Part shown: one piece after another, positions 4,510 to 64,000 of the stretch
Position numbering within the stretch: the stretch's first letter is position 1
Layout: the number at the start of each line of letters is the position of its first letter
NCBI RefSeq assembly: GCF_932294415.1
Contig: NC_065543.1
Span: 42,554,277 to 42,618,276, forward strand
Source: Quercus robur
Lineage: Eukaryota > Streptophyta > Magnoliopsida > Fagales > Fagaceae
Direction: 5' to 3'
Length of the DNA stretch: 64,000 nucleotides
Notes under the pieces: model-generated
What the model was told of the DNA's origin: nothing
Databases searched by the model: none
Seen by the model: the letters and a program-made list of their open reading frames with translations, nothing else
Translations under genes and position numbers: made by a program

Positions 4510-6081
4510 TTAATACTTTATTTGTTCAATAAAGCTTTCAAAATTCTTAAAAGAAGATCCACCTTCGGTAACTCTCTTTTTAGCCATCTCTTTCAGCTTC
4601 AATGCATTTGTTTTTATACCATCATCAAAGAGCAATGTTTTTATCTTTGTGTTGATTTCATGCCTTGTGATAATCCCATTTTCATCTAGGTTCAACCCTA
4701 AACCAACCTTCCAAACATCACATATGTAACTCTTATTTTAGAATTGATCTGTAAAGTAAGGCCAGCATAGAAATGGGACTCCCTTGCTTATACCCTTCAT
4801 GGTTGAATTCCATCCACAATGGCTTAGAACACATGCAATAGAAGGGTGAGCTAGCCCCTGCTCTTGAGGTCCCAATTAACAATCCTTCCATGATCAGCTA
4901 TTCTCGTTCTAAACCCATCCAGGAATTCAGAAAGTGCTTCATTAATGATATTTGACCGAACAACCCACAAAAATGGTTGGCCTATGAGTTCAAGTCCAAG
5001 AGCAAGTTCATCCAATTGTTGTTGGTTGAAGGTTGAGGTGCTGCCAAAGGAAGCATAAATGACTAAACCCACAGGTTGTTTATCAAGCCAACTTAGGTAA
5101 GTTGAATCCTCCGGCCAAAAGCTTCCAATATGATTTTCCAATTGATTGCCCGAAAGTAATGGACCAACTGGTATGATCTCAGGAATTAAATTTAAGGCCA
5201 ACAAGTCAAGTTCATAGAATAAGTTGCAGAGAAGCCATTTGCATAGTTTGACAGAATGGTTCATCTTGAAAACATATTGAAAAAAAATGTTTTGCATCTA
5301 TGATTCTCCTGGGAAGCTCCATGGAAACTCTGAGCTTTTCCATGCAGGGATTTCCTTTGACAGCCAAATCAAGTCATTTTTTATTGGAGTTCCTACAGGG
5401 TCATCATCATATTATTTTTATCAAAACCAAACAAAGTACCATATCTTGTATCAATTGTTTAATTTAAAAATAACCTTCATGTGAACCTTAACTTCTTTTT
5501 CATTTTTCTCTTCATCATTTAAAATAAAATATTAACAATGAATGAACTTTCTTCCTTTCAAGTGAAATGGAGAGACTGGGAGGTGTCAAGAATACTAGTT
5601 AGTTATTACCTTGAGTACCTATAATTCCATCCTCAATAAGCTTTGGGATATGGAATATAAGGGCCAAGTTTGCTGGTCCAATAGGCCAAAATGCAACACT
5701 TTGAATTCCCATCTTCTCAGCAACATCAAATGCCCACGCAACTATTACATCAGCAATGACACAAATGATCCGATCATCAGCAGATTTGTTAATTTTCTCA
5801 ATCAAGTCCTTGAAATGATCTGGCTTAGTTTCTTGAAAACTATTTATCAGTTTAAGAGTATCAATTTGATCATCCCCGGGTTCTAGACCGTCCGGGAGTG
5901 AAACTAGCCTTATCGAGCTATTCGCTGGCATTGTAGTTGTTAATCTTGCATTTATGAACTCAATGGTAACAAATGTGACCTTGATCCCATGATCAACAAT
6001 CTGGTGTGACAACTTCATAAGTGAGGCAACATGGCCCTGTGCTGGAAATGGTATGACTAGCACATGTGGTTGGCTACCCAT
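4510..6081 (-). pseudogene. UGT83A1-like UDP-glycosyltransferase, copy 2 (several breaks)
   Basis: Paralogue of the UGT at 250-1809, same strand, about 4.3 kb away. Exon 1 (6081-5610) is open from MGSQPHVLVIPFPAQGH to IPKLIEDGIIGTQ and ends at a CAAG|GTAATAAC donor. Exon 2 starts at 5392. Exon 2 has an in-frame TAG at 5300-5298 where copy 1 has Arg, a one-base loss in the PSPG box near 4866 (TGGGACC against TGGGTACC in copy 1), and a TAA near 4740 in the sequence after the box. The box keeps the usual terminal DQ, and the C-terminus (SSFKNFESFIEQIK) looks ancestral. So copy 2 has the better exon 1 and tail, while copy 1 has the better exon 2 core. Confidence 0.88.
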
Positions 6082-6874
6082 GACAAATTCAAAATTCCAA
6101 AATCTATAAAATAACATATGGAAGTCATATTCCAATTAAATCATAAACAATCTCTCTAGTAAGTCTCCAACACATAGGTAGAATAAGAATAGCATCACCC
6201 TTTAAGACTGCAACAATAAGTCAAATTTATTTATTTATTTATTTAAATGTGAGAAGAGATACAATAAGTCACAAGAAGTTGAATATTTGATAGGCTTAAG
6301 ATGGTCTCATAGAACTGTGTAAGAGCTAGTTTGAAGGTTAAAAACCATTAAATAAAACAACATATTATGAGCAAAAAGCAATATAAATGGTAAACCACAA
6401 ACTTGATCTTAGCTAGAAGGCCAAGAAAGGGATTGGTAATTCATACACTACTGTTATAACAAGATAACTGTAAAATTTCTGTTTTGATAATAAAACAGGA
6501 ACATGAAGAGAATGACCTTAGGGGAAGAATTGAAAGAATAGTTTATCAATGTAATAACATGTAGCAAATCAAGACAATAATATTAATTAATATCCACATA
6601 TATTTTTGATAATTTGATAGGTGGGGGAGGGGGATTCGAATGGCAAAAAAACAATAATCTTAATACACAATAAGGATATATATATATATATATATATAAG
6701 AAAAATTGGTTAGTTTAGTTACAAAATTGGTTATAACTTAAAACTACAACTTTAGTCAATAAGATAAACATTATCACATATTTTGAAAATCTAACCGTTG
6801 AATTGCTTGTTTTTTACGTTCTTAATATATATGTCAAATTTTGTATCAATTGGATATTATTTATTATATGATTT

Positions 6875-27644: not shown

Positions 27645-27717
27645 ACAACCTTTGTTGAGACTTGAGAGTAGCTTGTCAATACTTCACCGATCAGTCACTT
27701 GACTCAAACAAAACAAA

Positions 27718-28517
27718 ATGGCAGACTCCACCTCTTCAAACAACAAGCTCCAAGCAAGGTGGCCATTATCACCGGAGGCGCAAGCAGCGTGGGCGAGGCC
27801 ACGGCTCGCGAGTTCGTTACTCATGGCGCACGAGCCATCGTCATCGCCGACATCCAAGACGAGAAGGGCCAAAACGCCGTCGTGTCCATCGGCTCCAATG
27901 TATGCACCTACGTACACTGCGATGTCAGCGACGAGGAACAGGTCAAGAACTTAGTAGAGTCCACGGTTAAAGCATACGGATGCTTGGACATCATGTTTAG
28001 CAACGCAGGCGTGGGGAAATCGACCCACGCGTGCGATCAGACCATGCTGGACATGGACTTGTCGGCTTACGACAAGCTCATGGTGGTGAACGCGCACGGA
28101 GCGGCGGTGTGTGTGAAGCACGCAGCGAGGGCGATGGTGGAAGGGCACGTGAGGGGGAGCATCGTTTGTACGGCGAGCATAGGGGCGAGTGTTGGCACCG
28201 AGAAGTTGGTCGACTATGTGATGTCGAAGCACGCGGTGCTGGGGTTGGTGAGGTGCGCGAGCTTGAAGCTAGGCGTGTATGGGATACGCGTGAATTGTGT
28301 TTCACCAGGACCAGTTGGGACGCCAATGTTGAAGGACATTTTGGGGTATGAAAATGATGAGGAAGTGGATAAGGTGGTAGAGTCGAGTTATACTTTGAAA
28401 GGTGGGGTGGTGAGACCCAAAAATGTGGCTGACGCTGTGGTGTTTCTTGCTTCTGAGGATTCCCAGTTTGTCACTGGCCATAATTTGGTTGCGGATGGTG
28501 GGATTCCTAGAGTTTAG
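27718..28517 (+). pseudogene. SDR copy 2, frameshifted near codon 12
   Basis: Close paralogue of the SDR at 32925-33725. The conserved ATG (27718, MADSTSSNNKLQ) is followed by a one-base loss near 27755 (CTCCAAGCAAGG against CTCCAAGGGAAGG), so from here the ATG frame reads nonsense and ends within 78 codons. The rest of the SDR frame stays fully open to the stop at 28517: TGGASSVG cofactor loop, IADIQD, NAG, CTASIGAS, YVMSK, VNCVSPG. There is no in-frame ATG before the cofactor loop. So this is either a very young pseudogene, a sequencing error, or a gene using a non-AUG start such as the TTG at 27699, which is unlikely in plants. Confidence 0.8.
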
Positions 28518-28829
28518 AATTCGGCTAAGTAATCCATTAGAACGGCCTTGTAGGTGACTAAATTTCTCGATTCGAAATAAGTCAAACAAGTAAAATAGTT
28601 TCACAAATGTGAATTTGTATTGATGATTGTGTAGTACAATTCTCTGTGATTATAAAAGAGTTATCCTCTGATTCGATCTCCTTAAACGACTTGTTGATTG
28701 GATTTGTAGTAATGTGATTTTGACTCGAACGCCCAATGTACTTCAATTTGGCTGAAAAATGGATCGAAAATCTTTGGAATAGAATTACAATGAATCTTTG
28801 GCTATGAGCTTGTTGGAAATCCTTTATTC

Positions 28830-32529: not shown

Positions 32530-32924
32530 TTCTCCTGATGAGCTATCCAATACAAGAAGATAAAAAATTAAAATTTTAAAAATTTACTCTTATTAACTGA
32601 TCTTTCGGTGCAGATTCTTTTTTTTTTATTCTTCGGTGGAGATTCTTATCATCTCGGCAATTTACAAGTAGGGTATGACATAGGATTTGGATTTAATTTC
32701 AAACTCTTTGATAAAATTTTCATATGGGTTATTACAAAATAGACTGTATGCCACTTCTCACTTGATTGCTATTAAAAATGTGTGGAGACAATTAATTGTG
32801 ATCTCGAAATAAAAGGATGAAAAATAGTATTTCTTTGGCCTTTATTATTACTTTATCCGAAATAAAGGTATTCGATTCTCAAAAAAAAGAAGGTATTCAC
32901 TTCACTTGACTGAAACAAAACAAA
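32530..32924. repeat. Duplicated SDR upstream region (with intact gene)
   Basis: Matches 25790-26190. Copy-specific insertions of a few tens of bases are visible, for example around 32615-32640. It presumably holds the promoter of the intact SDR; no sharp TATA box is seen. Confidence 0.8.
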
Positions 32925-33725
32925 ATGGCACACTCGAACTCCACATCTTCAAGCAATAAGCTCCAAGGGAAGGTGGCCATAATCACCGGAGGTGCAAGTG
33001 GCATGGGTGAGGCCACGGCGCGCCAATTCGCCGCTCACGGCGCACGAGCCATTGTAATCGCCGACGTCCAAGACGAGAAGGGCCAAAAAGTGGCCGCATC
33101 AATCGGCTCCAACATCTGCACCTACATACACTGCGATGTCAGCGACGAGGAACAGGTCAAGAACATGGTAGACTCCACGGTGAAAGCGCACGGAAGCCTC
33201 GACATCATGTTCAGCAACGCGGGCATGGGGAGAGCGACCCTCACGTGCGATCAGACCGCGCTGGACATGGACATGTCGGCTTACGACAAGATTATGGCGG
33301 TGAACGCTCGTGGAATGGCGGCGTGTGTGAAGCACGCCGCGAAGGCCATGGTGGAAGGGCAAGTGAAGGGGAGCATAATTTGCACGGCGAGCATAGGGGC
33401 GAGCGTTGGTACCGAGAACTTCGCGGACTACGTGATGTCGAAGCACGCGGTGCTGGGGTTGGTGAGGTGCGCGAGCTTGAAGCTGGGGGCATATGGGATA
33501 CGCGTGAATTGTGTATCACCAGGGACAGTTGGGACGCCATTGTTGAAGGAGATGCTCGGGTATGAAAATGAGGAAGAGGATAAGGTGGTAGAGTCGAATC
33601 AATACTTGAAAGATGGGGCTTTGAGGCCCAAAAACGTTGCTGACGCAGTGGTGTTTCTTGCTTCTGAGGAAGCTGAGTTCATCACTGGCCATAATTTGGC
33701 GGTGGATGGCGGGTATAAGGCTTAA
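32925..33725 (+). CDS. Short-chain dehydrogenase/reductase (SDR110C type), intact
   Basis: 266-residue single-exon NAD(P)-dependent oxidoreductase, full length for the family. The Rossmann cofactor loop TGGASGMG is at residues 21-28, and Asp47 (IADVQD) suggests a preference for NAD over NADP. D71-V72 and NAG (98-100) follow. The catalytic tetrad is read as N127, S156 (CTASIGAS), Y169 and K173 (YVMSK). VNCVSPG is at 194-200. The closest families are secoisolariciresinol, borneol and isopiperitenol dehydrogenase-like enzymes, which oxidise alcohol groups of terpenoids or phenolics in the cytosol; the substrate cannot be told. The ATG follows AACAAAACAAA, as in both paralogues. It is GC-richer than its flanks, as is copy 2. 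It is the only intact member of the three. Confidence 0.95.
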   Translation: MAHSNSTSSSNKLQGKVAIITGGASGMGEATARQFAAHGARAIVIADVQDEKGQKVAASIGSNICTYIHCDVSDEEQVKNMVDSTVKAHGSLDIMFSNAGMGRATLTCDQTALDMDMSAYDKIMAVNARGMAACVKHAAKAMVEGQVKGSIICTASIGASVGTENFADYVMSKHAVLGLVRCASLKLGAYGIRVNCVSPGTVGTPLLKEMLGYENEEEDKVVESNQYLKDGALRPKNVADAVVFLASEEAEFITGHNLAVDGGYKA

Positions 33726-33729
33726 GAGT

Positions 33730-34985
33730 TTGGGTAATAATCCATTAGAACGGTCCAGTTGTTCTTGCAGAATCAACAGTAGTTGAACCTGTTCAAAGGG
33801 CAACGAAAAATTTAACAACTAACATCTCTAATTGGCATTACTTTTTAACTTGTGATGGTAATTTTTTTTAATTTAAAATTTTAATGTTGGTAAATTGTTC
33901 AAGTGCATCTCTCTATTATAATATCTCATATTCTTTTGAATTGCCATATTCATATATGCTTAAAATTCCCTCTAAATGGAATACAAGCTTGGTTTCAAAA
34001 AGTGGAGAATGGATGTTAGGTTCAATCCTAATTTTTGGCATTCGAAGAGAAATGTCTGAAAAATTTTGGTGATATTCTGTTGTTTAAATAACATTTGGAT
34101 CTCCCAAAATTTCAAAACTGAGATTAGGGTAAATCACAATGCCACATGAATCAAAGCTCTCTTAGATAACTTGATTTTTCCAAATGTTGTTAGGATATTT
34201 TGCATTATGATTTTGTGTTGGGCATTGCCCAAAAATAGGAAGAGGATGCCCCATCAAATGTGTCTTATATGGCTTAACATTGTAACAGCTAAGGTATTTT
34301 CAATATTGAAATGAACTGCAAATCCATCTGTAACCCTTTCATTAGTCTAATCATGGTGGCCAAAGAGTTAATTGGCCCTTTTATAGTCTAACAGGAAACA
34401 CAATTTGAAAATGATTACAAGTACAAAACAAAGTGTTCCTGATAAACGTTATTTATATACAATGAACTACTATGAAAACTAAATCATCTTAGGAAAAATT
34501 TCTCAATATTAATAAAAGGGAGAAACACTGTAAAAGCTTTTGATCATGATCCACATACTTGGCATGTAATCTTGAGAACTCCAATTCTTTCTTGCCAAGG
34601 ACAAGCTCTAGTTCAGAGCAAGTTTCAACGATGGTTGATGATGTCAAAGCTGAAAGTGAGACAGTAGAACATGTTTGGAGTGGCTATATTGTTTGATGGC
34701 TTGTGTAACACTGAGTAGAACCTGTGTATTCTATTTTTGGTTAGCGCTTTGTATAACCAATATCAGAATTGGTCCAACTCGTTCACAAGAATAAAAATTC
34801 ACCCATTTATCAGAAGTTCAAATCAAAGAAGCCAGCATGGTCATGCATATACAGGAGGGTCAAACAATGTAAGAATGCCTTCTAGTTCTACTACTGTTGT
34901 GCATCTTGCTCTTTAGAATTTTCCCCTTCAAAAGATGAAGGAATGCAAAAAGTCATCAGAATCTATCAACAGAGTGGTAGTTTGA
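33730..34985. other. Intergenic, no gene seen
   Basis: AT-rich sequence between the SDR 3' end and the duplicated NBS-LRR flank. No domains or clear repeats. Confidence 0.45.
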
Positions 34986-34989
34986 AGTT

Positions 34990-37900
34990 CGAGCTAACAA
35001 ATATCAGTTTTAGTCATAACTGACTTAATTGTTAGAAATTTAAAGCCATATTTGTTAGTAATACAATTAATGTCTAAACCATATGTTACTAATTGAATAA
35101 CAAAAAATATAAGTCAAGTTACAGAGATACACGTCCATTACCTTAACTACTAACAGTAGGGAAATATCCTCCAAACATTTGTATGAACTGGGGCACCCAA
35201 ACAAGTTGGCCTCTTAAGTAGGACAACAAGGCTGATGAAGAGAGAAGACTGCAAACACTAATTGAAGTTAGTATTATTCAATGCTTTGGTAGAGATATGT
35301 AGAAGCTATTATTTGTGAAATGAAATCAATGTGTATAAGATGGCTAATCTCCATACGTATACCTCAATGTGCAGTAAAATGTTGAACTCACTGGCTATGA
35401 GGCCATGATAACAACATAAGATTCGATAGGTGGATGAACTATTATGAATTCTGTTTAGTAAAAAAGATCCATTGGTTAGTAAAGATATAGGAATGGAAGT
35501 AACTATGGTGTAAAAGCTTAGCCTCACATTACATATTGTTGGTTGTCAACATACTGGTGCCAACTTGTAGGAAACACAATGGATTCCTTTAGTATCCAAG
35601 GTTTGTGGACTGACCATAGAATCCTGTTCAACAAGTGGAACACATTAGCTATCCATTCTATGTTTGGGCAGTAAGGGCTGGAGAAAGACAATCATCATTC
35701 TTAAGGCCAATTAATGATCATTAGAAAATTTTCAGGGCTAAAAAACAAAAACTAAAAAAGAAAGAAAACTCAGAAATAGTAAAATGGCTTACCAAAACCC
35801 ATAACTTAATCTTTGACAAAAAGTGAATCATATTCAACTTTCAACTTTCTCCTCTTTATTGGGAACAGTATCTTCTGCCATAAGTATAACAACAAAATTT
35901 CATAGTTTGTCATTGATTATATCTCAAGATTGAACATTCAAATCAAGATATCTATGATGATCATCAATATGTAAGTAGACTAATCACAAATGTAACATAT
36001 AAAAGTGTTGAAGTCATTGCCTATCCCATATTATTCGAAATGATTATCTGAAAATTCTCAGGGATAAAAGTAAATAAAAAACAAAAGAAAGAAAACTCAA
36101 GAATAGTAATATGGCTTACTGAAATCCATAACTTGATCTTAGGTAAAAATGCATCAAATTCAAGTTACAAGTTGTTCTTCCTTATTGGGCTCCTCAATTT
36201 CCTGCAAATATCTAAAGACAGAATTTCATAGTCTCTATCATTGATTATTTCTAAAGATTGAATATTCAAATAAAGATATATATGATGATAACAGTATGTA
36301 AGGTTAATCACAGATGCATACCTCAGAATCTAGAAAAGTGTTGAAGTCCTTGCCACGGCGACTTTAAGTTAGGGACCCATAACATAAGATTTGAAAGAGG
36401 ATGAATTGTCAGAAACTGAATATATTCAAGAAAGAAAAGAGCTATTTCTGATTATATAGATAGGAAATGGAAGCAACATGGCATAAAGTGTAAACCATAG
36501 GAAAGCCTAGTCCTTACTTGATGCATTGTCGAGGGTGATATCGAATATACCCAATCAACAATTGCAGATGCATACAAGTTATGGTTCCAGTTGACCTGCA
36601 ACCAAAAATTTTTGAGGAAAAAATAAAAAGAAAGAAAACTCAAGACAATAAAATTAATGTAGCTTGAGATTCAATTGAAGCAATTCAATCATAAGTAATA
36701 CAACTTACTGAACCTTACAATTTGATCTCAAAAGAAAAAAAAAAAGCTAACCCTCTCATTCAATTTGTTTTGAATTTCAAGTCGTACTTCCTTATATTGT
36801 ACACTGTACAGTAAACCAGACTTTAAGTTTATCAACAAATCTAATTAAAATAGAATAAATAATTTTTCATTGATTATTTCTCAATTTCAAAACTAACTTC
36901 ATATAAATTCAGAACATCAACAAATTTTGGTGGTCTTAAATTTGAATAACTAAAGAGCCTTATTAATCCAAAATTGATAAGTCAAAACTTAACAAATGAA
37001 GACAATATAATAGAAACTAAAAAGCCCCGATCAATACATTGTTGGTACTAGTAGCCCAGAATAAACACAACTCACACACGCACATAATCTCAAGAAGTTA
37101 TGAACTAATTTTTCAAATGAAAATACTTGATTTCTGTTGTAGGGAGGAAATTTGAAGATCCAAGTATGCTATGCAGCAAAATATGTAGAACTATATAAGC
37201 AAACAAAAATTCTATGAAAACTATTAAAAAATAAGTGCATAAGCTATTCTATTTCAAAGTGAAATATTAAACAAAAGGATATTTGAGAAAAAAAAATACC
37301 AATTTTAGATTCTTTAGAGCTTAGATTAGGAATCAAAAGTTTATCTAGATATTTACAATCTTAAATTATCTATGCTGAAGTAAAAGAACTCTAATTGGGA
37401 AATGAAGTATTTCCAGCATCTGCTAGTTAGTAAGGTACCGCACCCTTCCCCCTGCTGATAGATATCTCAACTTCTTGCAAGTTGCATCTATTTGAAGACA
37501 GCTCATCAAATAAATGAAAGGTTCTCCAACTATAGTGGAAAGGCAACCACTCTTGCCAACTCTTTGATTTTCAAATATGTTACTTACGCTTGCTGAAAAA
37601 GACAAGGCAGCAACTTGTGCATAGGTCACCACCCAAATAATGTTTGATTTGCGTGCAACCTGAATTGTCAGACAACCTTTAAATAAAAAGGGGGAAAAAA
37701 AGTAAAAAGAAGCAAGTTCCTCCAACAATTCAACAAATGATTTTTAATTCTTCTATGGATCCAAATTACGTTACCAAAGTCAGATAACGCCACAATACAG
37801 AGTATGTAACTGGAAAATCATAATGAGTATGCAATTCAGCACATTTACTTCCCCATTTGATAGAATATGAGAATCTTTAGTAATAGAGAGTCTCAGCTTT

Positions 37901-40010
37901 AGATTTTGAAACGCTACCAATAATAGATCCATGTCTATGATTAGAAAATGTAAAAGAAAAAAAAGTTCCAAAATGAAAAACATGGAAAAGAGCAAATTAC
38001 ATTACCTTGAAGAATTCCATATAACTCACACAGAGTCATCAAACTCCTGCACTGTTGTCAATTTGCCACTGAAATACAAAGCAACAATGAATTTGAAAGG
38101 GAACAAAAAATTTAGTAAATAGTACACAAATTTTTTTTTTTTTTAAATAGTGATAATAAATTTTTTTGGAAGAGAGATAATAGAAGAGAAGAAAAAAGCT
38201 CGCAAATTTTAGAGAATAACAAAGAAGCAATGAAATCAATTTAGAAGTCCATCTATTGTGATTCAAAGTGAACAATCTTTTATCCCTGGTCCACTCTGAC
38301 TACTTCTCTCTCCTTTTCAAAGTGAACAATAAAAAAAAAAGTCAGTTTTGGCTCTAATCGAAAGCTTCACAAGTGTATAAGTTAAAATAAACCTTTAACT
38401 ACTGTGTCAAATCTTCCACTTACATGTCCAAAGAGAGGGATTGCACTCCATCTTTACTGGAAGGTAGGGGCATTCTTGTCCCTGGAATTCATTTCTTGAA
38501 GAGATACAAAGCTTCTCCACCCCAACACAATCAATATTAATGACTCAAACTAATGATATAAATGGGTATCAATATAATAAAGATAAAATGACATCTAAAC
38601 TTACAAACTCACCTCAAAATTTTGTAGGTCCTGGAATTTGTAATAAGTAGGGGAAGAAATCTAATTGTTCCTATCCTTGCCACCATGACTGAGTTCAGCA
38701 GGAAATATCTTATTCCTTCTTTTCACTGGCTTGGATTTCATCAAAAAAGAGCACATGATGGCTAGAATTGATGTAAAGTGTCTATTTTTCATTTTTGAAA
38801 ATGACATAGGTGATCCTTAATTTCCCTTTTCCCTTTGCTATGTATGCTTTTCTGAACTTAGAATGCACAAACGGTAACAAATATAATGCTAGAACTTTGA
38901 ACTACAATTGAAAAGCTAGATTTGAAGAAAAGAGAGCAATTACTAGGCCAATTGTTAAAAGTACAAAAGCAAATCTGATAATTGGCTAAAGCTCAAGAAC
39001 AATATAATATTGGGAAAATATCAATCATTTTGTGTGAATTTAAACTTTATCCATGACACTTATGCAAGCATTTATTAAAAAAAAAATTAAAAAGGAAAAA
39101 AATCCATTTTTCATGCATTATATTATGTTGGGGGAAGGGCAATAAAAAAGAAATTAACAAAACCTTTCCAAGAGAGTTAGACAGCTTAAGTAAACAAACC
39201 TTTTCACGCATTAGCGGACCTTGGTTGAAATTCAAGAACCAAGTCTTCCTATAGACACATTATGCCCAAATTATGAGAAAAGCTTGAAGAAAGTGAATAT
39301 ATTATGGAAGAAATAACAAATAATTTATGAATGAAATTTTGATATTTCATTCTTATATGAAAAAAAATACATACTAGTATTCAAGAAAGACAGAGCAGAA
39401 AGTCAGTTATGGACGGACTCACCACCAGCTTTTTCTGATATCACATGAGCTTCAAGATGCTACTAGGTGGATGACATAGCATTCAATCTGTTTTAGATGA
39501 CAATCTTGGAAAACCCAGGGCATTACCTTCAGCTCATCCTTCCTTTTAATGATGAAAATCTTGGACAATAAAATATCTAATAGATTGCATAATGTGGTGA
39601 GGCATAGTATGGGAGCACATGCATCAGCTTTAGGGAATCATGATTGCCATATGTTGCTCCTAAGTAGAATCTTCCCTTCTCTTCTACAATGGGATACTAG
39701 GGCCATCAGTAATAGAAAAAACAATTATAATTCCACAAATACAAAAGGAACGTTACCCAACTATGTACACAAAGGATTATAATATGTAATGATTATTCTG
39801 AATAACCATCTCATATGAAAACATAGTTGTAGCACATGAAACAAGCACAAAAGATTCCTTAGTTTATTGTTATTAATGTATGTGGCCAGGGTTTAATATC
39901 CAAAACCAAAAACTTGAAGAATTTATTCTATTGAGCTCACTCACTAGTCTAGTTTCCAGAGTATGAAAGAGAAAAACTCCTCAAGTTCTTCAAAATTTGA
40001 ATCCATCTTG
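34990..40010. repeat. NBS-LRR 3'-flank duplication, copy A
   Basis: Nearly collinear with 55110-64000 once the Helitron is removed, at an offset of about 24.1 kb. Shared stretches include ACCATATGTTACTAATTG, GGGAAATATCCTCCAAACAT, GGAAATGAAGTATTTCCAGC and ATGATGAAAATCTTGGACAA. Copy A continues right into the NBS-LRR gene at 42272, and the comparison ends at 40010 only because the window ends. It contains the undisturbed Helitron target at 35061/35062. Confidence 0.88.
36518..36595 (-). other. Predicted noncoding exon downstream of the NBS-LRR gene
   Basis: 78-bp segment with a clean acceptor (GGTTGCAG|GTCAACTGG) and donor (GCATCAA|GTAAGG) on the NBS-LRR strand. The equivalent in copy B (about 60622-60705) has GC in place of GT at the donor and a small length change, so a protein frame is not conserved. 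It fits a spliced 3' UTR exon or a long noncoding RNA exon. Confidence 0.45.
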
Positions 40011-42271: not shown

Positions 42272-45200
42272 TTAATAGATTCTGATATCTGGAATATGGG
42301 CAATTCTGTACCGCTCTTTTCCACCAATTGCACAACTTTCCTTTAACTTGGAGCAACGGAAGATTTCCAGAATTTGAAGAGAAGAAAGCTTGGTCAACCA
42401 CTCAGGCAAAGTTTCCATGGCTTCAAAGTGAGATATGAAGAGACTTTCAAGGGCAGTCAAGACTTGAATATTGTCCGGTATGGACTTAAGATTAGGCCAA
42501 CCTCTCAATTCTAAATGTTGCAGGGATGCGTGCAAGTGTTCGATAGAAACGAGACTCGGGAAATCATCCAGCTCCTCACAAAACTTGCCAATCGCCAAAG
42601 TCTTCAAGCGGGTGAGAGATTCTAAACCCTTTGGGAGACTCGTCAATTTAGGACAATGACAAATTTGTAATTCGACAAGAGAATGCAATCCTCTTAAATC
42701 AGGTATTGATATCAGATTATCGCAATACCTAATTTTTAATTGAGTAAGAGAATGCAATTGTCCTAGATTTGGAATTGATTTCAATCTGTCACAACGCTGA
42801 ATCTCTAGTAGGGTAAGAGACGTGCATGATTGTAGCCCAGTAGGTAGAATAACACAACCAGATATCTCCAAGCGATGAAGATGGGATGGGACACCTTGTA
42901 TTTGTAATTTCCAACAGACTTTTATTTTAAGCGATCGAAGAGAGGTGCAGAAGGCCCATACATCCTCATGTGACACGATGGACACCAAATCGGCCCATCC
43001 CGCTACCGTCAGAGACATGAGACTCGCATTTTTTTGCAATAACTTCTCTGGCAGACAAGCAAGTCCTGAAATATTCCAAACCTCGAGGGACGTGAGTGTG
43101 GTAAGCTTGCTGATAATGTTTTCAAATGTCGTGCTACCCATGTCCCTAATGAGTAATTTCTTAAGACTCGAAAAATAACATGGAGCACTTTTCAGTTGGT
43201 TACAAAATTGAATGCTCAACTCCTCAAGGCAAGGAAACACCATTAGGCCTGTTGTTGTTGCTGGCTCCATCACATCCGTCCATTCCTCTAGATTGGGCAT
43301 TCTACTCAAATCAAGTTTTCTCAAAGCTGGGAACAATATAGTGCCATCACTTCCATTATTATAGTTACTGTAAAACTCAGTTCCTATACGTCTTACACCA
43401 TCCATACCTTTTATTGTAAGAACCCTAAGATGGGGTAGAAGCCCAAGAGTGGGAAGAACCTCACATTTTCTGCAATTGCCAAATTCGATCTCAATCAAAT
43501 TGCCAAATAGCAGAGACATCCATGATGGGAATTTCTTTCCTCCAAAGCCATCAATTGCTAAGCTCTTCAAATGTCGGTGAGGCTTGAGACCTTCCAACAC
43601 CTCTTCATCATTCTCGTGGTTGCCTTCTCTTTCCGATCCCCGTCTCGTCCAGTAAAATCTCAACTTGTATATTTTGGCCTTTTCTTCTAAATTTGCTCTT
43701 CGGGCTTCTTCTCTATCTCTCACATGCCCTAGATTCCAGAGGTTTAATTTTCCTCTAAGTTGATTTAAGCATCCCAATTCCTCGATCCGATGACCTGCAT
43801 CTTGACCCACAATAAAACATGGCAATGTTTGTAGACACGTCAATTGCCCTATATCCTTAAGTTTTTCATAAAAGCCATAAGGGATATAAATATGCCTTAA
43901 GTTTATCAATTGTTTTAGATCTTCAGGAGGCTCTCTGACATTTCGGCAACCTTCGATTCTTAAAGTTTGCAAATTGTAGAGTTTGGTGATGGACTTTGGT
44001 AATGCTTTGATGGATAAACTTGCGACGCTGAGAAGCCTCAAATGTATTAAAAGGCCAACTGAACTTGGCAATTCTTTTATAGAGTTTCCATTTAATTTTA
44101 GAACACGTAAGCAATTAAAATTTAATAACGTGTTGCCAAGCACAACATTTTTAGAAACAAATGTGCGCAATTTCCTAACATCATCTTTTGAAGATGGAAT
44201 TCTTGGTATAATTTTACCATCAGATTCAATAAATAAATATCGTGTGTGACTGATGTCACCCTCCAAATCCTTATTCAAAAATAAGGTCTCAGATTTTGAA
44301 ACTGAGAGTGCAAGATCATGTACCAAATCATGCATCTTGCAAATGATAATATTATCAAACTCATCCTTTTTCTCATCTTGAAATAAGGAATTTGCCAACA
44401 AGATGTCAAAATACATGTTACCAATATCCTCCATTACCACACAACTTCCTTGAGATGGTTGAAGGAACCCTTCAGCCATCCAAAACTGAATTAACTCTTC
44501 CTTTGCAATCATGTAATCTTTAGGAAAAATTGAACAATATGCAAAGCATTTTTTAAGAGATGGTGATTGCAGATGATCAAAGCTCAATTTTAATATTGGT
44601 AACATTTCATCTCTAACATGTGGGTAATTCCAAATTTCATTGTTTTGAATTGCTAACCATTCATTTTTTACTTTTTTACGAGCCATTGTCCCTCCTAGGA
44701 CTTTTGCTGCTAATGGGACCCCTCCACATTTTTTGGCAATATCATATCCGATAGCCTCCAAATCTGGAGTTAATGGAATTGAAGATACTTTTTTCTTGAT
44801 TATGGACCAGCATTCTGCATCAGGTAGTCTTTCTAAGTGATGCCGGGGATGTGTCTCCATGATTTCTGCCACCTTGTCACTACGGGTTGTAACAATAATA
44901 CTGTTTCCAGTATTTGACATAATTCCTAACAAGCAATCCCTTAATGTATCCCATTTTAGTAGAACTTCATTCCATACATCATCAAGAATTAGAAGAAATT
45001 TTTTCCCCTGCAACTCTTTTTGAAGGTTTTGAAGTACTGTATTCTTACTTACTGAAAGACTTGAGTTATTGGTAAGGGATTCAAGAATCCCTCTTAAAAT
45101 ATTTTTGTCATTAAAATCATCAGAGACACATACCCACATTGTCTTATCAAAATGTTTTTTTACTAGCTCATGATTGTACACTAGTTTTGCAAAAGTTGTC

Positions 45201-45772
45201 TTTCCCAAACCAGCCATGCCGACTATAGGAATGACGGAGAGTTGTTGATTGGTTGCACTAGTCAGCAAGCTCACTATTTTTGAAACTTGACTTTTCCTTC
45301 CTACAACTTCTGAATGATCAAGAAAGGAGTCTGTCTCTCTAGTTGGAACAATCTCAACATTTGAATCTACTGACAATATTCTAGCAAGTCCAAACCCATT
45401 TGCCAACCCATGTACTTTTGCTAGTTTTTCCTGAACAGCCTTAATTTTTTTCGCCATGGAGAGACTGAAAATAAATGGGTCGAGGAAGTTTACCTTTCTC
45501 TTCCTTTCGTTTTCGACCTCTATCTTTTGCCGGAGATTCTCGTACATAAACTCGTCCAGCACATCGTCAGCTTCATAAGCAACATCTTCAAGCTTTTGGA
45601 GCCAAAGCTTCACAGACTCATCTCTCACTTGTCTTCTCTCGGCATCAGTCAAAACAGCTCGAATCATGGTTAATGATTCACCAAGCCCTCTCAGCTCCTC
45701 CTTGCAGCTCCGAGCATTGCCGATCAGCTCAGTAGCAAATGAAATCACCCTGCTTACGATTTCCTCTGCCAT
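42272..45772 (-). CDS. CC-NBS-LRR disease-resistance protein (RGA-like), intact
   Basis: 1,166 residues in a single exon, full length for the family. It is a cytosolic immune receptor that senses pathogen effectors and triggers cell death. The start was chosen at [16 protein letters not shown], the usual CNL beginning, rather than the ATG 13 codons upstream. The Rx-N coiled coil (1-150) has the EDVID-like stretch [15 protein letters not shown] (61-75). The NB-ARC has a P-loop GMAGLGKTT (185-193; Ala where Gly is commoner), MWVCVSDDF (RNBS-A), kinase-2 LLILDDVW (260-267, with the Trp that marks CNLs), IIVTTRS (RNBS-B), CGGVPLA (349-355), [12 protein letters not shown] (RNBS-D) and KMHD (479-482). 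About 20 leucine-rich repeats fill 540-1150, with late repeats of the [11 protein letters not shown] type. No stops or shifts. An A-rich 3' flank follows, which is duplicated at 55110-64000. Confidence 0.97.
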
Positions 45773-45799
45773 CGTGCTCTGATGATAAGTCAAAAATAA

Positions 45800-46945
45800 A
45801 TTGAAAACCATTCATAAACTATAGAAGAACTGGTGATGCGTCAAAAAACTAACAACTATTATTGATGGAAGAGTGAAACTATAGAAGAATTGTGCTTGTG
45901 ATGCGTTAAAGACTTAACAGCCATCGTTTTCTTCTTCTTTCTCTTTTTCTTTCTTTTTTTTTTTTAATAAATTGTCTTCATTTTCTAATGAAAAGTAATT
46001 GTAAAGTTTGTAAACATAATTGGTTAGAAGTATCTAGTTTGTAAATGATCAAATGAGCATTGCGTGCTTTCATTACCACAAGTACAACAACTGTAGTGGA
46101 ATAGCAAAAAATGATCTGTTGCATGCATGTATAAAGATGATTTAGTTCTTAGATTACACCTTTGAGAACGACAATTTTGTTCCCATACAGGGGTAAAAAA
46201 GTAAATAACAGAAAAACACTTTTCCTTCTTCACAAGGTGGAGGATCAGGTTTGAGTTATGAAGCAGAAATTGATAGTCATAGTCATAACAATATTGATGA
46301 AAACAATAATAAGATGAAGCACAAATTATTTCCAGAACAGAGTCTTACTTGGCAATGTGAAAACTTGAATTTCTTCTTTGAGAATCAATGCACTTGTTGA
46401 TCTTTTGTAATAAGAGATTACAATTTTGGAATTTGAGATTACAAAATAAGGAAAATGGTAAAAAAAGAAGAGGATGGGAAGAGGATGGGAATTGGCCAGT
46501 TCACTAGATGATCACAACCATCCATCTGGAGAGGGTGGATCCCATCACCTGTCTTTTCATGGTCTTTTAGGTCCAGGTGTCAAGTTCCACCCCCTTCCTT
46601 TCCTTGCTTACACCATAATAGCACAGTTACCTAAGTACTAACTAGAAGTTACAACACTTCTCTGAAATAGAAGAAAAAGAACCAGATCGAAGAGTTCAAC
46701 TTTTTTAAAGTAAAAAATTGGCTAACTAATTGACCCATAATGAGAAATGACAAGCTTAGATAGAACTTTGTCAAATCAGAGCCACCAAATCCAACAGAGG
46801 TAGATTTGGATAGTCCCAAGCGCCTCTCAGTACAACTCCATGCCGATACATTTTCCCACCATGCTTTGAGAAGATAAGATAATAATGGTAGTGTGGGGGT
46901 ACACTAAAAAAGTTTTGATTTTTTACACAAATAATAATTAGGTCT
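45800..46945. other. Upstream region of the NBS-LRR gene, no other gene
   Basis: The short direct repeat GAAACTATAGAAGAA occurs around 45820 and 45880. T-rich tract at 45930-45970. No confident promoter element or ORF. Confidence 0.45.
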
Positions 46946-47995: not shown

Positions 47996-48277
47996 CGCAA
48001 TTTTATCCGGAGTAAACAACTTGACAGGCTTTGGTCCATCAACATGTAGCAGTCTTCCTTGTTACTTCACATGCATCTACATGTGACACTTTTGGCTCTA
48101 TCTCTTGTTCATCTTCCAAGAAATTGCTCCTTTATTCGCAATTTTATCCGGAGTAAACAACTTGACAGGCTTTGGTCCATCAACATGTAGCAGTCTTCCT
48201 TGTTACTTCACATGCATCTACATGTGACACTTTTGGCTCTATCTCTTGTTCATCTTCCAAGAAATTGCTCCTTTATT
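47996..48277. repeat. Perfect 141-bp tandem duplication
   Basis: 47996-48136 and 48137-48277 appear identical, each running from CGCAATTTTATCCGGAG to TTGCTCCTTTATT. A third, diverged partial unit (TTGCTCCTCTATTTC, TTGATAGTACACTC) follows near 48359. The identity means the event is very recent, or is an assembly artefact. Confidence 0.9.
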
Positions 48278-55167: not shown

Positions 55168-55198
<31 letters not shown>

Positions 55199-56033
55199 CC
55201 GAAACTTTTGAAACTCCCACAATTTTCCACGCCAGCACAACATTAAAAAATAAAAATAAAACATAAAACAATAAAACCAAAACCAAAAAAAAAAAAAAAC
55301 GTCATAAACCCATTCCCTACCCGACTCTGATTTTCACGCTTTCCCTTTCACGAAAACTCTGCCATTACCTTCTTCCCAGCTCCTCCTCAATCACACCCAT
55401 GGCAAGCCAATCAGACCCACGGCAATTCAACACCCAACCCATCTAGCCTACGTTTCCCGATCCTCTGCCTTTCCCTTTCCACGGCAAGACCTAACAGGCA
55501 CCTTCAACAAGGGTTACCAGAGATACACATATATATTTACAATTGAGAAAGGCTTAAGACAATTTGGTTTTCCTTTGAAGGAAACAAAGAAAAAAAAAGT
55601 GGGTACGATAAAGAAAGGATCTAGGAAGATTACCTTTTTGAGATTTGGCTTAGAATCCACAAAAAACAGAGATACTCAACCAACGACAAGCGGCTAATAA
55701 CTGGCTGTGAGTAGGGGTGTGCAAAACTTCACCGGAACCGACCCAACCGACCGCCGCCGACGACACCGTCCCGATTGTTGCGCCGACCGAATGAGCCGAG
55801 GCCGGCATTCGGACTTCGTCCTCCATTCCGATGCCGGTGTGGTGAAATCACCGGATTGACAAATCCGAAACCGAGCTGTGGCCGAACCGAACCGATACAA
55901 GATCTGTTCTGTCGTTCTGTTTTTTTTTTTTTTTTAATGAAGCTGATAAACGACATCGTATGTATGGGTGTTATTAAAAAAAAAAAAGAAGCAAAACGGT
56001 GCGTTTTATGCTAGGTTTTCAGATTCTCAGGGG

Positions 56034-56140
56034 TATATAAGTTCGTATGTTTCTCTCAGTATCTTATCTCTCTCTCTCGCTCTCGCCTCTCTACTCAAGT
56101 CTCGCCTGACGCAGAACACCGGTAAGCCGTAAGCTTCTTC
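56034..56140 (+). promoter_or_regulatory. Promoter/5'-UTR-like segment inside hAT element 1
   Basis: TATATAA at 56034-56040, followed 30-60 bp later by a CTCTCTCTCTCGCTCTCG leader, then CAGAACACCG|GTAAGCCG, which looks like a splice donor with intron-like T-rich sequence after it. This is the layout of a plant core promoter, pyrimidine-rich leader and first intron, and may be a captured gene start. No coding exon follows. Confidence 0.35.
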
Positions 56141-56397
56141 GTGTTTTCAGTTTTGTAGTTTGTCTTCGTGTTTTACTGTTTTTTTCATTTTCATTTGTTT
56201 GGGAAAGCTGAAAGCAAGAATGATTTTATTGCCATTGCTGTGTGACTGTGTCTCTCAAAGCAAAGCTTGTGTGAGTGTGACTGTGTCTGTATTGTGTCTT
56301 TCTATTTTGTGGGGGGTCCAAGTTGGACTAATGTGAGCTGCTTACACTTCGATATATGTAAGGTTGGATGGATGTAAGTAGCCTGAAAGTTTTATCA

Positions 56398-56455
56398 TTC
56401 ACGAAGCTGGATACACAGTGTAATCATGTCCAACTCCAAGTAATATAATATTATA

Positions 56456-56497
<42 letters not shown>

Positions 56498-57905
56498 ATA
56501 CACAGTGTAAGGTTGGCTGCTACACGAAGCTGGATACACACAGGGCCGGCTCAACAGTAGATGCAAGAGATGCAACCGCCTAAGGCCCCACTTGTAAAAA
56601 TTTTTTTATATATAATATTTATTTATATATTTTAGTTAAAAAAATTTTAAGTATTTTTATTAGTCAATAAAATACATTAAAAAAACCCCATTGTATCCTA
56701 AAATGTAAAATATTAAAAAGGAAAAAAAGTCAAAATTCAACTAATACAATTAAATTTTAGGAGACAAATGTATTATTCCATTCTTAAAATATGCTAAAAT
56801 TAAAATTAATAGCAGACAAATTCATTAATAACATAACGTAATTGTCTTGAAATATGCTAAAATAGAGATTATAAATGTCAAAAACAAAACAAAAATCTCT
56901 CATCTCTCTATCTTTCTGCCTGTCCATCTATATTCTTACGGCCTTACCTTTCTTTTCTTCATCTTCATCTTCATTTTTGATCTTTTTCCATCAACTCAGT
57001 CAGCCCCTCTAGCTTAAAATTTTTCTTTGTTGATCCCAGCATACCAGCCTACCAGTACCAGCCGGCAGTCACAGAAGGTATTTCTCTCATTCTCTGCTTC
57101 AGTTCTTTCTTCCCCTCTTTCTCTTTGTCTTGCCGAAAATAAAGACCCAAGAGTCTTCTATTTCTTTAACTTATATTATATATATTTTTAGTTTATTTCA
57201 CACTTTCACCACAACTGTCACTGAACAACTGTTTGATGTTGATGGGACGGGACACGTTTTTTGTTCTGCCCATCTGTGGACCTTTTTTTGCTTTAAAACT
57301 TAGGCATAGAAATTGAAGAAAAGGCTGGTCCGGCTGGATCACAGCATGGTTCTCACCCCTTTTTTTTATATAGTGGTACTGTAGTCAGTGGTTTGTCACA
57401 TCACGTGACAGACCACTGACCACACTTTTTTTTTGTTTGTTGTTCTTTGTTAAAGACCACAGAGACCACTATTATTTACTTATTTGGTCCGACGGTTTCT
57501 AACCTTTTTTTTTTTTTTCCTATTATTATAAATAATTATGTCAATTAATAATTTGATGTATATTATATTAACTCATTTGTATTATAGTGACACTAATTTA
57601 TTAAACTATATATTAAATTAATTTTTACTTGTGCAGGTTTAAATTTTCAAATGATCACGGCTTCAAAAAAATTACAATAATCAGGTTCTATTGTTCTATA
57701 CTTTAAATTTTATTTTTAGTTAAATTATCATTTTAGTTTTATTAATATTTAATTATAAAAAGGTCTCATTTAAATTTTTAGCCTAAGGCCTCAAAACTTG
57801 TTGAGCCGGCCCTGGATACACAGTATATTCATGTCCAACTCCAAGTAATATAATATTATATTATATATTATATATAATACAGTAATACACAGTGTAAGGT
57901 TGGCC
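56398..57905. repeat. ~130-bp tandem repeat split by hAT element 2
   Basis: The phrases CGAAGCTGGATACACA, TCATGTCCAACTCCAAGTAA and CACAGTGTAAGGTTGG occur on both sides of hAT element 2 (about 56400-56540 and 57815-57903). A tandem duplication existed in hAT element 1 before element 2 landed in it. Confidence 0.75.
56541..57814. mobile_element. hAT element 2, nested in hAT element 1
   Basis: 1,274 bp with a perfect 16-bp terminal inverted repeat CAGGGCCGGCTCAACA. Perfect 8-bp target duplication GATACACA (56533-56540 and 57815-57822). Subterminal GCCTAAGGCC motifs are mirrored. There is no transposase ORF; the interior is AT-rich with a CT-rich patch near 56930-57130. Confidence 0.95.
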
Positions 57906-58369
57906 ATTTGAGAGTTTGTAGCATTATATATCATACACGGATGCTTATATATATAATAATATAATATAAACTATTAAGGTTGGCTTGGCTGTTTGGATCA
58001 TTATGTGATCATTATGAAATGAAAAAATACATTATTTGGCATAGGTTTCTTGAACAGGTTGATATATTGATATTGGGCTTGAAAGCCCAAATTTTTTAAT
58101 TATTAAAAAAATTGTTTTTTTTTAATATTTCAAACCGACCAAACCGACTAAACTGTACCGCAAAAAAACGCACCGCTATAGGTCAGAAAACCAATCCTAG
58201 ACGGTGTGCATCGGTTTCAATTATGAAAAAACCGATCTCTATCGGTTCGGTAATAAATTTGGAAAACAACCGCCCTTACCGAACCGCGCACACCCCTAGC
58301 TGTGAGGAATACAAAGAGATTGAGAGGAAAGGAACGATAACGGTTTCCGTTGGAAAGCCTGTTTGATTT

Positions 58370-59100
58370 GGACGGAGTTATTAGACAGAATGTTGAAACA
58401 AAAAATGGAGTTATTAGACAGATAACAAAAATGTGGTTATCTTAGTATTTATGTGCCATGTGGAGTTATTAAACAGATTTTTGTTTCAACATGGTGGGCC
58501 TTTTGAGCCCAATATGGTTTTAGCCTAATGGGACCCAGTTATGGGCCCAAAATAATGAATTATTGGGCCTATCCAACCAGAATACTGTTCATTCTATTAA
58601 TTTTCTGCTGCTAATCTGCTTTTCAATGGCCGAATAAAATTTAGACAAAATTCTGTTTTTTTGTGTGTGGAAACTGAGCTATTGATTAATTTGAATTGTT
58701 TTTATGTGGAAACTGAGCTATGATTTATTTTTTACTCCAGCCTATTTTGTATTCTAGAGTTGATTGAATTGTAGTTTTTATGCACACACTAAGATAATCA
58801 AATTGAATATATGTTTTTGTATGGAAACTGAGCTATTGGTCAATTTGAATTGTTTTTTTGTGGAAACTGAGCTATGGGTTTGAATTTTTTTAGTGGAAAT
58901 TGAGCGAGGTGAAGTTATCAGCTTGCTTCTTTTGTTTTTGTATGGAAACTGAGCTATGATTTATTTTTTACCCCAGCCTATTTTGTATTCTAGAGTTGAT
59001 TGAATTGTAGTTTTTTGCAGACACTTAGATAATCAATTTGAATATATGTTTTTAAATATAATGAATGCATTGAATATTTAGTGGAAGACATGAAATAAAT
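58370..59100. repeat. Internal direct repeats at Helitron 3' side
   Basis: The phrases TGGAAACTGAGCTAT (at least five times) and TATTTTGTATTCTAGAGTTG (twice, near 58743 and 58979) show a duplication of about 240 bp and a shorter recurrent unit. No ORF. Confidence 0.75.
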
Positions 59101-59190
59101 GAAATTGAAAAATAACAACATGCTACTAGAGAATCAATGTTGAATTCCAATAGCTAATGTCACATCATTTGGAAAAAAATTGGTAGCTTT

Positions 59191-59218
59191 CCCGTGCATC
59201 GCATGGGTTAGCGACTAG
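59191..59218 (+). other. Helitron 3' terminal hairpin and CTAG
   Basis: Stem CCCGTGC / GCATGGG with one G-T pair and a 3-base loop, then TTAGCGACTAG. It ends exactly at the host T (59219). Confidence 0.9.
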
Positions 59219-62200
59219 TACAATTAATGTCTAAACCATATGTTACTAATTGATAACAAATATAAGTCAACTTACATAGAAATACGTCCATTACTTTAAC
59301 TACTAACTGTAGGGAAATATCCTCCAAACATTTGTATGACAGCAAACAAGTTCGCCTCTTAAGTAGGACAGCTAGGCTGATGAAAAGAGAAGACTGCAAA
59401 CATTAATTGAAGTTAGTATTATTCAATGCTTTGGTAGAGATGTAGAAGATATTATTTGTGAAATGAAATCAATGCGTATAAGATGGTTGATCTCCATATG
59501 TATACCTCAATGTACAGTAAAATGTTGAAGTCGCTGGCTGAAGCCATGATAACAACATAAGATTCAATAGGTGGATGAATAAATACGAATTCTGTTTAGT
59601 AAAAAGGATCCATTGCTTAGTATATAGATAGGAAATGGTGTAAAAGCTAAGCCTCACATTACATATTGTTGGTTGTCAACATTCTGGTGCCAACTAGTAG
59701 GAACTACGAGATGAGTCCATGGATTCCTTCAGTATCCAATTAAGGATTGTGGACCAACCATAGAATCTTGTTCAACAAGTGCAATACATTAGCTATCCAT
59801 TCTATGTTTGGGCAGTAAGCTGGAGAAAGACAGTCATCATTCTTAAGGCCAATTAATGATCATTAGAAAATTTTTAGGGATAAAAAACCAAAAAAGAAAA
59901 GAAAAGAAAGAAAACTCAGAAATTATAGAATGGCTTACCAAAACCCATATTCAAATTTCAACATTCTCCTCTTTATTGGGAACTTTATCTTCTGCCAAAA
60001 GTCTAAAAACAAAATTTTATAGTTTGTCATTGATTATATCTCAAGATTGAACATTCAAGTTGATCATTAATATGTAAGTAGACAAATCACAGATGTTGTA
60101 TATAAAAGTGCTGATGTCATTTCCTATCAAATATTATTCGAAATGATTCTCTGAAAAGTCTCAGGGATAAAAGTAAATAAAAAACAAAAGACAGAAAACT
60201 CAAGAATAGTTATATGGCTTACCAAAATCCATAACTTGATCTCAGGCAAAAATGCATCAAATTCGAGTTTCAAGTTGTTCTTCCTTATTGGACTCTTCAA
60301 TTTCTTGCACAAATCTAAAGACGGAATTTCATAGTCTCTGTAATTGACTATTTCAAAAGATTGAATATTCAAATAAAGATATATATGATAATAACAGTAT
60401 GTAAGGTTAATCATAGATGCATACCTCAGAATCTATAAAAGTGTTGAAGTCACTACTACGGCAACTTTAAGTTAGGGAGCCATAACATAAAATTTGAAAA
60501 GGGGACAAATTGTCAGAAACTGAATATATTCAAGAAAGAAAAGAGCTATTTCTGATTATATAGATAGGAAATGGAAGCAACCATGGCATAAAGTGTAAAC
60601 CAAAGGAAAGCCTAGGCCATGCTTGATGCATTGTCGCTGGTGATACTAAATATACCCAATCAACAATTGCAGATACATACACAAGTTATGGTTCCAGTTG
60701 ATCTGCAACCAGAAATTTTTGAGGAAAAAATAAGAAGAAAGAAAACTCAAGACAATAAATTTAATGTAGTTTGAGAATCACTTGAAGCAATTCAATCATA
60801 AGTAATACAACTTACTGACCATTATAATTTGATCTCAAAAGAAAAAATAGGCTAACCCACTTGTTCAATTTGTTTTGAATTTCAAGTCGAACTTCCTTAT
60901 ATTGTACACTGCACAGTAAACCAGACTTTAAGTTCATTTACAAATCTAATTAAAATAGAATAAATACTTTTTCATTGATTATTTCTCAAGTTCAATAATA
61001 ACTTCATATAAATTCAGAACATCAACAAACTTTGGTGAAGTTTGAAATTTGAATAACTAAATAGCCTTAATTAATCCAAAATTGCTAAGTCAAAACTTAA
61101 CAAATGAAGACAATATAATAGAAACTAAAGAGTCCCAATCAATACAGTGCTGGTAGCCCAGAATAAACACATAACACACACACACAATCTCAAGAAGTTA
61201 TGAATTGACTTTTCAAATGAAAATACTTGATTTCTGTTGTAGGGAGGAAATTTGAAGATCTAAAGTATGCTATGCAGAAAAAAATGTTGAACCATATAAA
61301 CAAACAAAAATTCTAAGAAAACTATAAAAAAAATAAGTGCATTAGCCTTTCTATTTCAAAGTGAAATATTAAACAAAAGGACATTTGAGAAAAAAAAAAA
61401 CTAATTTTAGATTCTTTTGAGCTTAGATTAGGAATCAAAAGTTTATCTAGATATTTACAATCTTAAATTATCTATGCTGAAGTACAAGAACTCTAATTGG
61501 GAAATGAAGTATTTCCAGCATCTGCCAGTTAGCAAGGTACCACCCCCTTCTTGCTGGTTGCATCTGTTTAAAGACAGCTCATCAAATAAATGAAAGGTTC
61601 TCCAACTATAGTGGAAAGGCATCCACTCTCTCTTGTCAACTCTTTGATTTTTAAATATGTTACTTACACTTGTTGAAAAAGATAAGGCAGCAACTTGAGC
61701 ATAGGTCAACACCCACATAATGTTTGATTTGTGTGCAAAATGAAATGTCAGACAACCTTTAAACAAAAAAAAAAGAAAAAAAGAAAAAAAAAAAAGAAGC
61801 AAGTTCCTCCAACAATTCAACAAACAATTTTTCATTCTTCTATTAAAAAAAAGAAGCAAGTTCCTCCAACAATTCAACAAATAATTTTTCATTCTTCTAT
61901 GGATCCAGATTATGTTACCAAAGTCAGATAACACCCCAAAACAGAGTATGTAACTAGAAAATCATAATGAGTATGCAATTTAGCGCATTTACTTCCCCAT
62001 TTGACAGCATATAAGAATCTTCAGTAATAGAGAAAACTTAGATTTTGCCATGTGTAATCCAGTCTCAGAAGTGTTAAAAAGCATAGAGTCTCAACTTTAG
62101 ATTTTGAAACACTACCCAATAATAGATCCATGTCGGTGATTAGAAAATGGTAAAGAAAAAAAAAGTTCCAAAATGAAAAACGTGGAAAAGAGCAAATTAC

Positions 62201-63421
62201 ATTACCTTAAAGAACTCCATATAACATGCACGCATCATCAAGCTCCTCATTGCTGTCAATTTTCCACTGAAATATAAAGCAACAATGAATTTGAAAGAGA
62301 ACAACAAATTTAGTAAATAGCATACAAATTTTAGCAAAAAACAAAGAAGCAATGAAATCAATTTAAAAGTCCATCTATTGTGATTCAAAGTGAATAATCT
62401 TTTATCTTTGGTCCACTATAACTACTCTCTCCTTTTCAAAGTGAACATTAAAAATATATAGTTTCGACTATAATCTAAGGCTTCACAAGTCTATAAGTTA
62501 AAATAAAACTTCAACTACTGTGTCAAATCTTCCACTTAGATTTCCAAAGAGAGGGATTGCACTCCATCTTTACTGCCCCACCCTAACACAATCAATATTA
62601 ATGACACAATCTGAGGATATAAATAGTATCAACATAATAAAGATGAAATTATATCTAAACTTAAAAAACTCACCTCAAAATTTTGCAGGTCTTGGAATTT
62701 GTAATAAGTAGGGAAAGAATTCAAATATTTTCCCATCCTTACCGCCCTGACTGAGTCATATTCTTTCTTTTCCCTGCCTTGAATTTCGTCAAGAAGAGCA
62801 CATTATGGCTAGTATTGATATAAAGTGTCTATTTTTCATTTTTGAATATGACATAGGTGCTTGGTAATTAGTGATCCTCAATTTCCCTTTTCCCTTTAGC
62901 TATATATATTTTTCTGAACTTATAATGCCCTAACCATAATAAATATAATCCTAGAACTTTGAACTACAATTGAAAAGCTAGATTTCAAGAAAAGAGAGCA
63001 ATTATTGGGTCAATTGTTAAAAGTACAAAAGAAAATTTGAAAATTGGCTAAATCTCAAGAACAATATAATATTGGGAAAATATCAATCATTTTGTGTGAA
63101 TTAAAACTTTATCCATGACACTTATGCAAGCATTATTATAATATATTTTTTTTAAAAGAAAAAAGAATCTATTTTTCATGCATTATATTATGTTGGGGGA
63201 AGGGCAAGAAAAAAGAAATTAACAAAATTCCCAAGAGAGTCAGACACTGAAGTACACAAACCTGTTCATGCATTAGTGGACCTTGGTTGAAATTCAAGAA
63301 TCAAGTCTTCCTACAGACACATTATGCCCAAATTATGAGAAAAACTTGAAGAAAGTGAATATATTAGGAAAGAAATAACAAATACTTTATGAATAAAAAT
63401 TTGGTATTTTATTCTTATATG

Positions 63422-63459
<38 letters not shown>

Positions 63460-64000
63460 ATACTTGTACTAGAGAAGAGATAGAGCAAAAAGTCAGTTTT
63501 GGATGGACTTACCACTAGCTTTTTCTGATATCACATAAGCTTCAAGATGCTTCTAGGTGGGTGACATAACAGTTTATCTGCTTTAGATGACAATCTTGGA
63601 AAACCTGGGGCATTACCTTCGGTACATCCTTCCTTTTAATGATGAAAATCTTGGACAATCAAATGTCTAATAGCTTCCATAATGTGGTTAGGCATTGTAT
63701 GGGAGCACATACATCAGCTATGAGGAATCACAATTGCTATACGCTGTTCCTAAGTAGAATCTTCCCATTTCATCTACAATGGGATACTAGGGCCATCAGT
63801 AATAGATTAAACAATTTAAATTCCACAAATGCAAAAGGATTGTTACCCAACTATATACACAAAGGATTATAATATGTAGTGATTATTCTGAATAACCATC
63901 TGATATGAAAACATAGTTGTAGCACATGAAACAAGCACAAAAGATTCCTCAATTATTGTTGTTAATGTATGTGGCCAGGGATCAATATCCAAAAACTTGA

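Follow-up and report, generated by a model that had tools for sequence, protein, structure and literature searches.

The window analysed here is a 64,000-nucleotide stretch of the Quercus robur genome (C39:42554277-42618276), and the genome searched for related sequences comprised 785.7 Mb in 42 contigs. A domain scan covered six of the seven window open reading frames (ORFs) of at least 180 aa, which include a CC-NB-LRR, a UDP-glycosyltransferase, two short-chain dehydrogenases and a copia gag, a set in keeping with a plant genome. The CC-NB-LRR lies on the minus strand at 42272-45811 and is a 1,179-aa ORF, open throughout, with Rx_N, NB-ARC, winged-helix and LRR domains. The UDP-glycosyltransferase-like region is duplicated nearby (192-2388 and 4460-6768, 87-88% identical in the main blocks), as is a short-chain dehydrogenase gene (27695-28545 and 32902-33753, 85%), and at 47996-48277 a 141-bp unit occurs twice, in adjacent copies that are 100% identical.

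A further block is present in two copies, A and B. Since the CC-NB-LRR ORF is on the minus strand, the duplicated block near copy A sits downstream of it, which for copy A bears out the term NBS-LRR 3' flank used in the initial annotation; a corresponding gene next to copy B would be located past the edge of the window. At copy B, right and left flanks are separated by an insert, and the features concerned are the following.

35054-35072, plus strand: empty site in copy A, uninterrupted GTTAGTAATACAATTAATG, junction 35061/35062
35059-39905, unstranded: copy A of the duplicated right flank, in several blocks homologous to 59216-63994
59216-63994, unstranded: copy B of the duplicated right flank; its first three matched bases belong to the insert
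55168-59218, plus strand: whole insert, a non-coding Helitron with nested elements, bounded by A55167 and T59219 and defined by empty sites
55168-55711, plus strand: 5' part of the Helitron core, recognised by family-copy matches (TC, a TA run, the family 5' region and, last, the left outer target duplication)
58307-59218, plus strand: 3' part of the Helitron core, with the CTAG end, recognised by family-copy matches
59191-59207, plus strand: 3' hairpin, from a fold of the last 35 nt

The insert measures exactly 4,051 bp, starts with TC and ends with CTAG (59215-59218), and lies between A55167 and T59219 with no target duplication, precisely as the initial annotation had described it. When the two B flanks are joined and aligned with copy A, no base is gained or lost at the junction. 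According to passages in two sources (PMC4683698, PMC4778049), Helitrons have TC and CTRR ends, insert between A and T, encode a Rep-helicase and carry near the 3' end a hairpin that acts as termination signal. The insert has the 5' TC and a 3' end of the CTRR type, and the family copies have the same ends; its A/T target without duplication is borne out by the empty sites and by the site counts of the family. Its hairpin, a 7-bp stem with a 3-nt loop, ends 11 nt short of the insert end, within the interval of about 10-12 bp typical of Helitrons, and has a predicted energy of -7.2 kcal/mol; the fold strength of the last 35 nt was equalled or beaten by 4 of 200 shuffles. An ORF scan of 55168-59218 found no ORF longer than 84 aa.

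The Helitron family has many copies in the Quercus robur genome. A search with the insert ends, as proposed in the initial annotation, gave at least 40 matches for the 69-bp 3' end (94-100% identical; 40 of 481 candidates scored) and at least 55 for the 253-bp 5' end (40 of 965 candidates scored), one of the latter, at C2:15858739, being 97% identical. Among the loci read, the base preceding TC is A in all 12 readable 5' sites (window, L029, L030, L032, L034, L035, L036, L038, L061, L064, L065, L066). This count omits L026 (first 49 bp missing), three loci with another CTAG-ending sequence within the TA run (L020, L022 and L024) and those with a 5' end that fell outside the stretch read or was unmatched by the pattern. 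The base following CTAG is T in all 19 distinct 3' sites among the loci read (window, the C4 group counted as one, L026, L028-L038, L060, L062, L064, L065, L066). The copies read share the same ends, save for the incomplete L026 and the C4 coding group with its interrupted 5' end; the different ends that would have spoken against the Helitron reading were not found among them. Together with the ends, the hairpin, the A/T target and a coding relative described below, these copies support the Helitron identity first proposed for the insert.

The length of the insert is accounted for by a 1,456-bp Helitron core, two nested hAT-like elements, which the initial annotation did not mention, and one extra target duplication. 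The nested elements total 2,587 bp, or 64% of the insert.

55712-58298, unstranded: outer hAT-like element with ends TAGGGGTGTGC and GCACACCCCTA, enclosing the inner one; site empty in L064-L066, filled in L026, L029 and L030
55704-55711, unstranded: left outer target duplication, GCTGTGAG, 8 bp
58299-58306, unstranded: right outer target duplication, GCTGTGAG, 8 bp
56541-57814, unstranded: inner hAT-like element with a perfect 16-bp terminal inverted repeat, CAGGGCCGGCTCAACA; site empty in L026, L029 and L030, relatives elsewhere
56533-56540, unstranded: left inner target duplication, GATACACA, 8 bp
57815-57822, unstranded: right inner target duplication, GATACACA, 8 bp

Both elements are flanked by 8-bp target duplications, of which the empty sites hold a single copy, and their terminal inverted repeats match over 16 of 16 bases in the inner element and over 11 bases, read by eye, in the outer one; by the usual criteria for the superfamily, both are taken to be hAT-like. 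Captured host genes were considered as an explanation of the insert length and rejected, on the grounds that 2,587 bp of it are nested elements and that the insert has no ORF above 84 aa. The outer site is empty, with a single target copy, in the Helitron copies L064, L065 and L066 (one change in that of L066), and L067 is also without the outer element, its sequence being altered at the site. Three other copies at different genomic sites, L026, L029 and L030, bear the outer element at the identical internal position; one of the two target copies has a single change in L026 and likewise in L030, and in L029 the pattern located just the right one. The inner site is empty in these same three copies, with 60 of 60 bases matching. 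The inner element belongs to a family with at least 94 matches (40 of 709 candidates scored). At 2847-3434 of L030 (C1), a different relative of it lies elsewhere in the outer element, between two copies of GATGTAAG (read by eye), and this relative inserted independently of the inner element of the window copy.

The order of events is read from these copies: the outer element entered a source Helitron, which spread to at least four sites, and the inner element then entered the lineage of the window copy. It might be proposed that a hot spot drew separate insertions of the hAT-like element into the four Helitron copies, with no passenger involved, and it is true that repeated insertion is seen among relatives of the inner element, as the one in L030 illustrates. 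We regard this as very improbable, since the outer element occupies the same position in all four copies and since core segment 622-703 is present in all four bearing copies (window, L026, L029, L030) and absent from all four copies without the element (L064-L067); moreover, pairwise K among the bearing copies, with Helitron and outer element taken as one, is 0.0205-0.0272. A search with the 300 bp adjoining segment 622-703 (15 matches, 11 candidates, all scored) turned up no copy beyond these four that has their arrangement. Over 2,537 gap-free columns the window copy has 24 private changes and the others 22, 27 and 30, with six changes shared by pairs, so that the divergence of the four passenger-bearing copies is nearly star-like.

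Evidence that the site was once empty comes from several duplicates of the flank. Copy A carries GTTAGTAATACAATTAATG uninterrupted with its junction at 35061/35062, as the initial annotation had noted, the quoted span of 35055-35075 being off by one to three bases. The right flanks of A and B are 87.6% identical over 35059-37756 and 59216-61843, with more blocks out to 39905 and 63994. The left-flank homology, whose shortness had not been remarked on before, is confined to 51 bp ungapped and is weak beyond; the A/B score over the last 100 bp is nonetheless 42.5, higher than in all 500 shuffles (maximum 19.5). Apart from this short left homology of only about 50 bp between A and B, we met with nothing at odds with an insertion, and no evidence contradicting one was found. 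The alignment of the two copies that the initial annotation had called for gives K = 0.0826 over the joined flanks. Copy A is a distant control for the insertion, with its left homology of about 50 bp and K of 0.083.

When the whole genome was searched with a 401-bp piece of copy A, 22 matches came from 21 candidates, all scored, and 20 loci could be aligned at the junction: copy A itself (L039), the right flank of B (L046), six same-contig loci with 84-92% identity to copy A (L040-L045) and 12 others (L047-L058; 70-79%). The insertion site is unsplit in all six same-contig loci, and 9 of the 12 others are continuous across the junction, L053, L054 and L056 having small gaps nearby. No discontinuity was found at 35061/35062 of copy A, and the unsplit sequence, which L040-L045 also have, speaks against misassembly there. 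These six loci lie at C39:4.37-4.72 Mb, about 38 Mb from the window. Two of them are nearer to copy B than copy A is, and the spread of the block thus took several steps.

Two of the empty loci, L043 (C39:4704078) and L044 (C39:4368607), are homologous to both B flanks. From the left flank of B they differ by a K2P distance of 0.0245 (1,495 sites) and 0.0231 (1,496 sites), and from the right flank by K of 0.0147 (1,512 sites) and 0.0130 (935 sites), respectively, the right-flank local alignments stopping at 1,518 and 939 of 1,700 bp. For the joined flanks K is 0.0196 for L043 and 0.0192 for L044, against 0.0826 for copy A. A closer control, and one that covers both sides, is thus offered by L043 and L044, and copy A was accordingly rejected as the best one, its left homology being so short; the clean internal control seen in copy A by the initial annotation is truly empty but is surpassed by these two. 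Because both loci are empty and near B, the Helitron must have arrived later than the split of B from the L043/L044 lineage, which limits its age more closely than copy A does, and the earlier view that the insertion postdates the flank duplication is upheld. Both loci also have the left flank of B over 1.5 kb but lack the Helitron; the point at which A and B cease to be homologous on the left thus predates the insertion, and the Helitron was rejected as the cause of this break.

As an alternative, the empty state of copy A, L043 and L044 could be derived instead of ancestral, each having lost the Helitron by precise excision, which could come about in duplicated blocks through conversion from an empty duplicate. 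We consider it very improbable, as the six same-contig loci and nine of the 12 more distant flank copies are also without the insert, and as precise excision is not known to be usual in Helitrons. A chimaeric assembly in which the insert was wrongly joined between the flanks is scarcely credible even in a duplicated region such as this, since the breakpoints coincide exactly with the ends of the family, at an A/T target as expected, and the B flanks match L043 continuously across the junction.

Having arrived as an insertion in B, the window copy can be placed in time against its flanks. Its private share of changes is about 0.95%, close to half of the divergence between B and L043/L044 (0.96-0.98%). 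Transitions make up 44 of 54 changes between the window Helitron and L026, and 35 of 58 between flank B and L043. The relatively larger share of transitions in the element than in the flank suggests that the insertion probably took place somewhat later than the split of B from L043/L044, an estimate that gene conversion between blocks could disturb.

Relatives that encode a Rep-helicase are present in the genome, where a profile search gave 126 matches to PF14214. One of them, on C6, is 13,890 bp long (27089871-27103760, minus strand; positions derived by hand) and has the same 5' and 3' ends as the insert. Its ORF of 1,418 codons, with a TTG start, contains Helitron_like_N (PF14214, 3.6e-62), PIF1 (2.8e-96) and Pif1_2B (1.1e-22) domains, and a member with shared ends and a Rep-helicase is what is expected of a Helitron family. 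Four PF14214 matches on C4 have the family 3' end about 6.3 kb downstream of them; the four have one 3' flank in common (20 bases compared), so that a single insertion was probably duplicated here. For three of these four, the reading also covered the 5' side. At L020 (about 3297), L022 (about 3539) and L024 (about 3917) another CTAG-ending, hairpin-like 3' end adjoins the 5' TA run, an arrangement that looks as if a second Helitron had entered the TA run of the coding copies. A PF14214 locus on C40 has a 1,432-aa frame and the family 3' end, with no 5' end found within the stretch read. The PF14214 match at C37:3474051 was considered as the partner of L026 and set aside as unproven, since L026 starts about 4.3 kb downstream and without its first 49 bp.

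The data show three insertions nested in one another, with the target of each and the sequence in which they occurred, and a coding relative that shares the ends of the Helitron. On this basis we propose (with a probability of about 96%) that a non-coding Helitron entered an AT in a duplicated, resistance-gene-associated block with a hAT-like passenger already aboard, received a second hAT-like element later, and was most likely served by a Rep-helicase in trans. In this history a source Helitron copy had first received a hAT-like element, with an 8-bp target duplication; from this source came four or more copies, which carry the passenger at different sites, and the second hAT-like element later entered the first in the lineage of the window copy. 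The Rep-helicase most likely came in trans from long relatives that share these ends, for example the 13.9-kb one on C6; on the standard interpretation, a relative of that type would have moved the window copy by the rolling-circle route described for Helitrons. It is very likely that, in the near-star burst of at least four copies, a Helitron lineage carried hAT-like cargo with both ends present, meaning that rolling-circle transposition moved an element of the cut-and-paste type, in a family whose coding relative still has 1,418 codons open.

The exact ends, targets and order of three nested transpositions should help genome annotation and tests of Helitron detection. If the proposed history is true, the three nested layers, each with empty-site copies, make an internally controlled and relatively dated case. 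The insert is a clean but ordinary example that leaves knowledge of Helitrons unchanged, and of mild general use is the hAT-like passenger copied with its Helitron, both ends in place.

The two nested elements resemble non-autonomous hAT-like elements in their short terminal inverted repeats, their 8-bp target duplications and the lack of a long ORF. The insert itself is like the canonical TC...CTRR Helitrons of plants and their non-autonomous copies in its TC and CTAG ends, its 3' hairpin and its A/T target without duplication, as well as in having relatives that code for a Rep-helicase. It differs from them in the long 5' TA run of the copies read and in the hAT-like passenger present in at least four copies, differences of content only that mark no departure from plant Helitrons.
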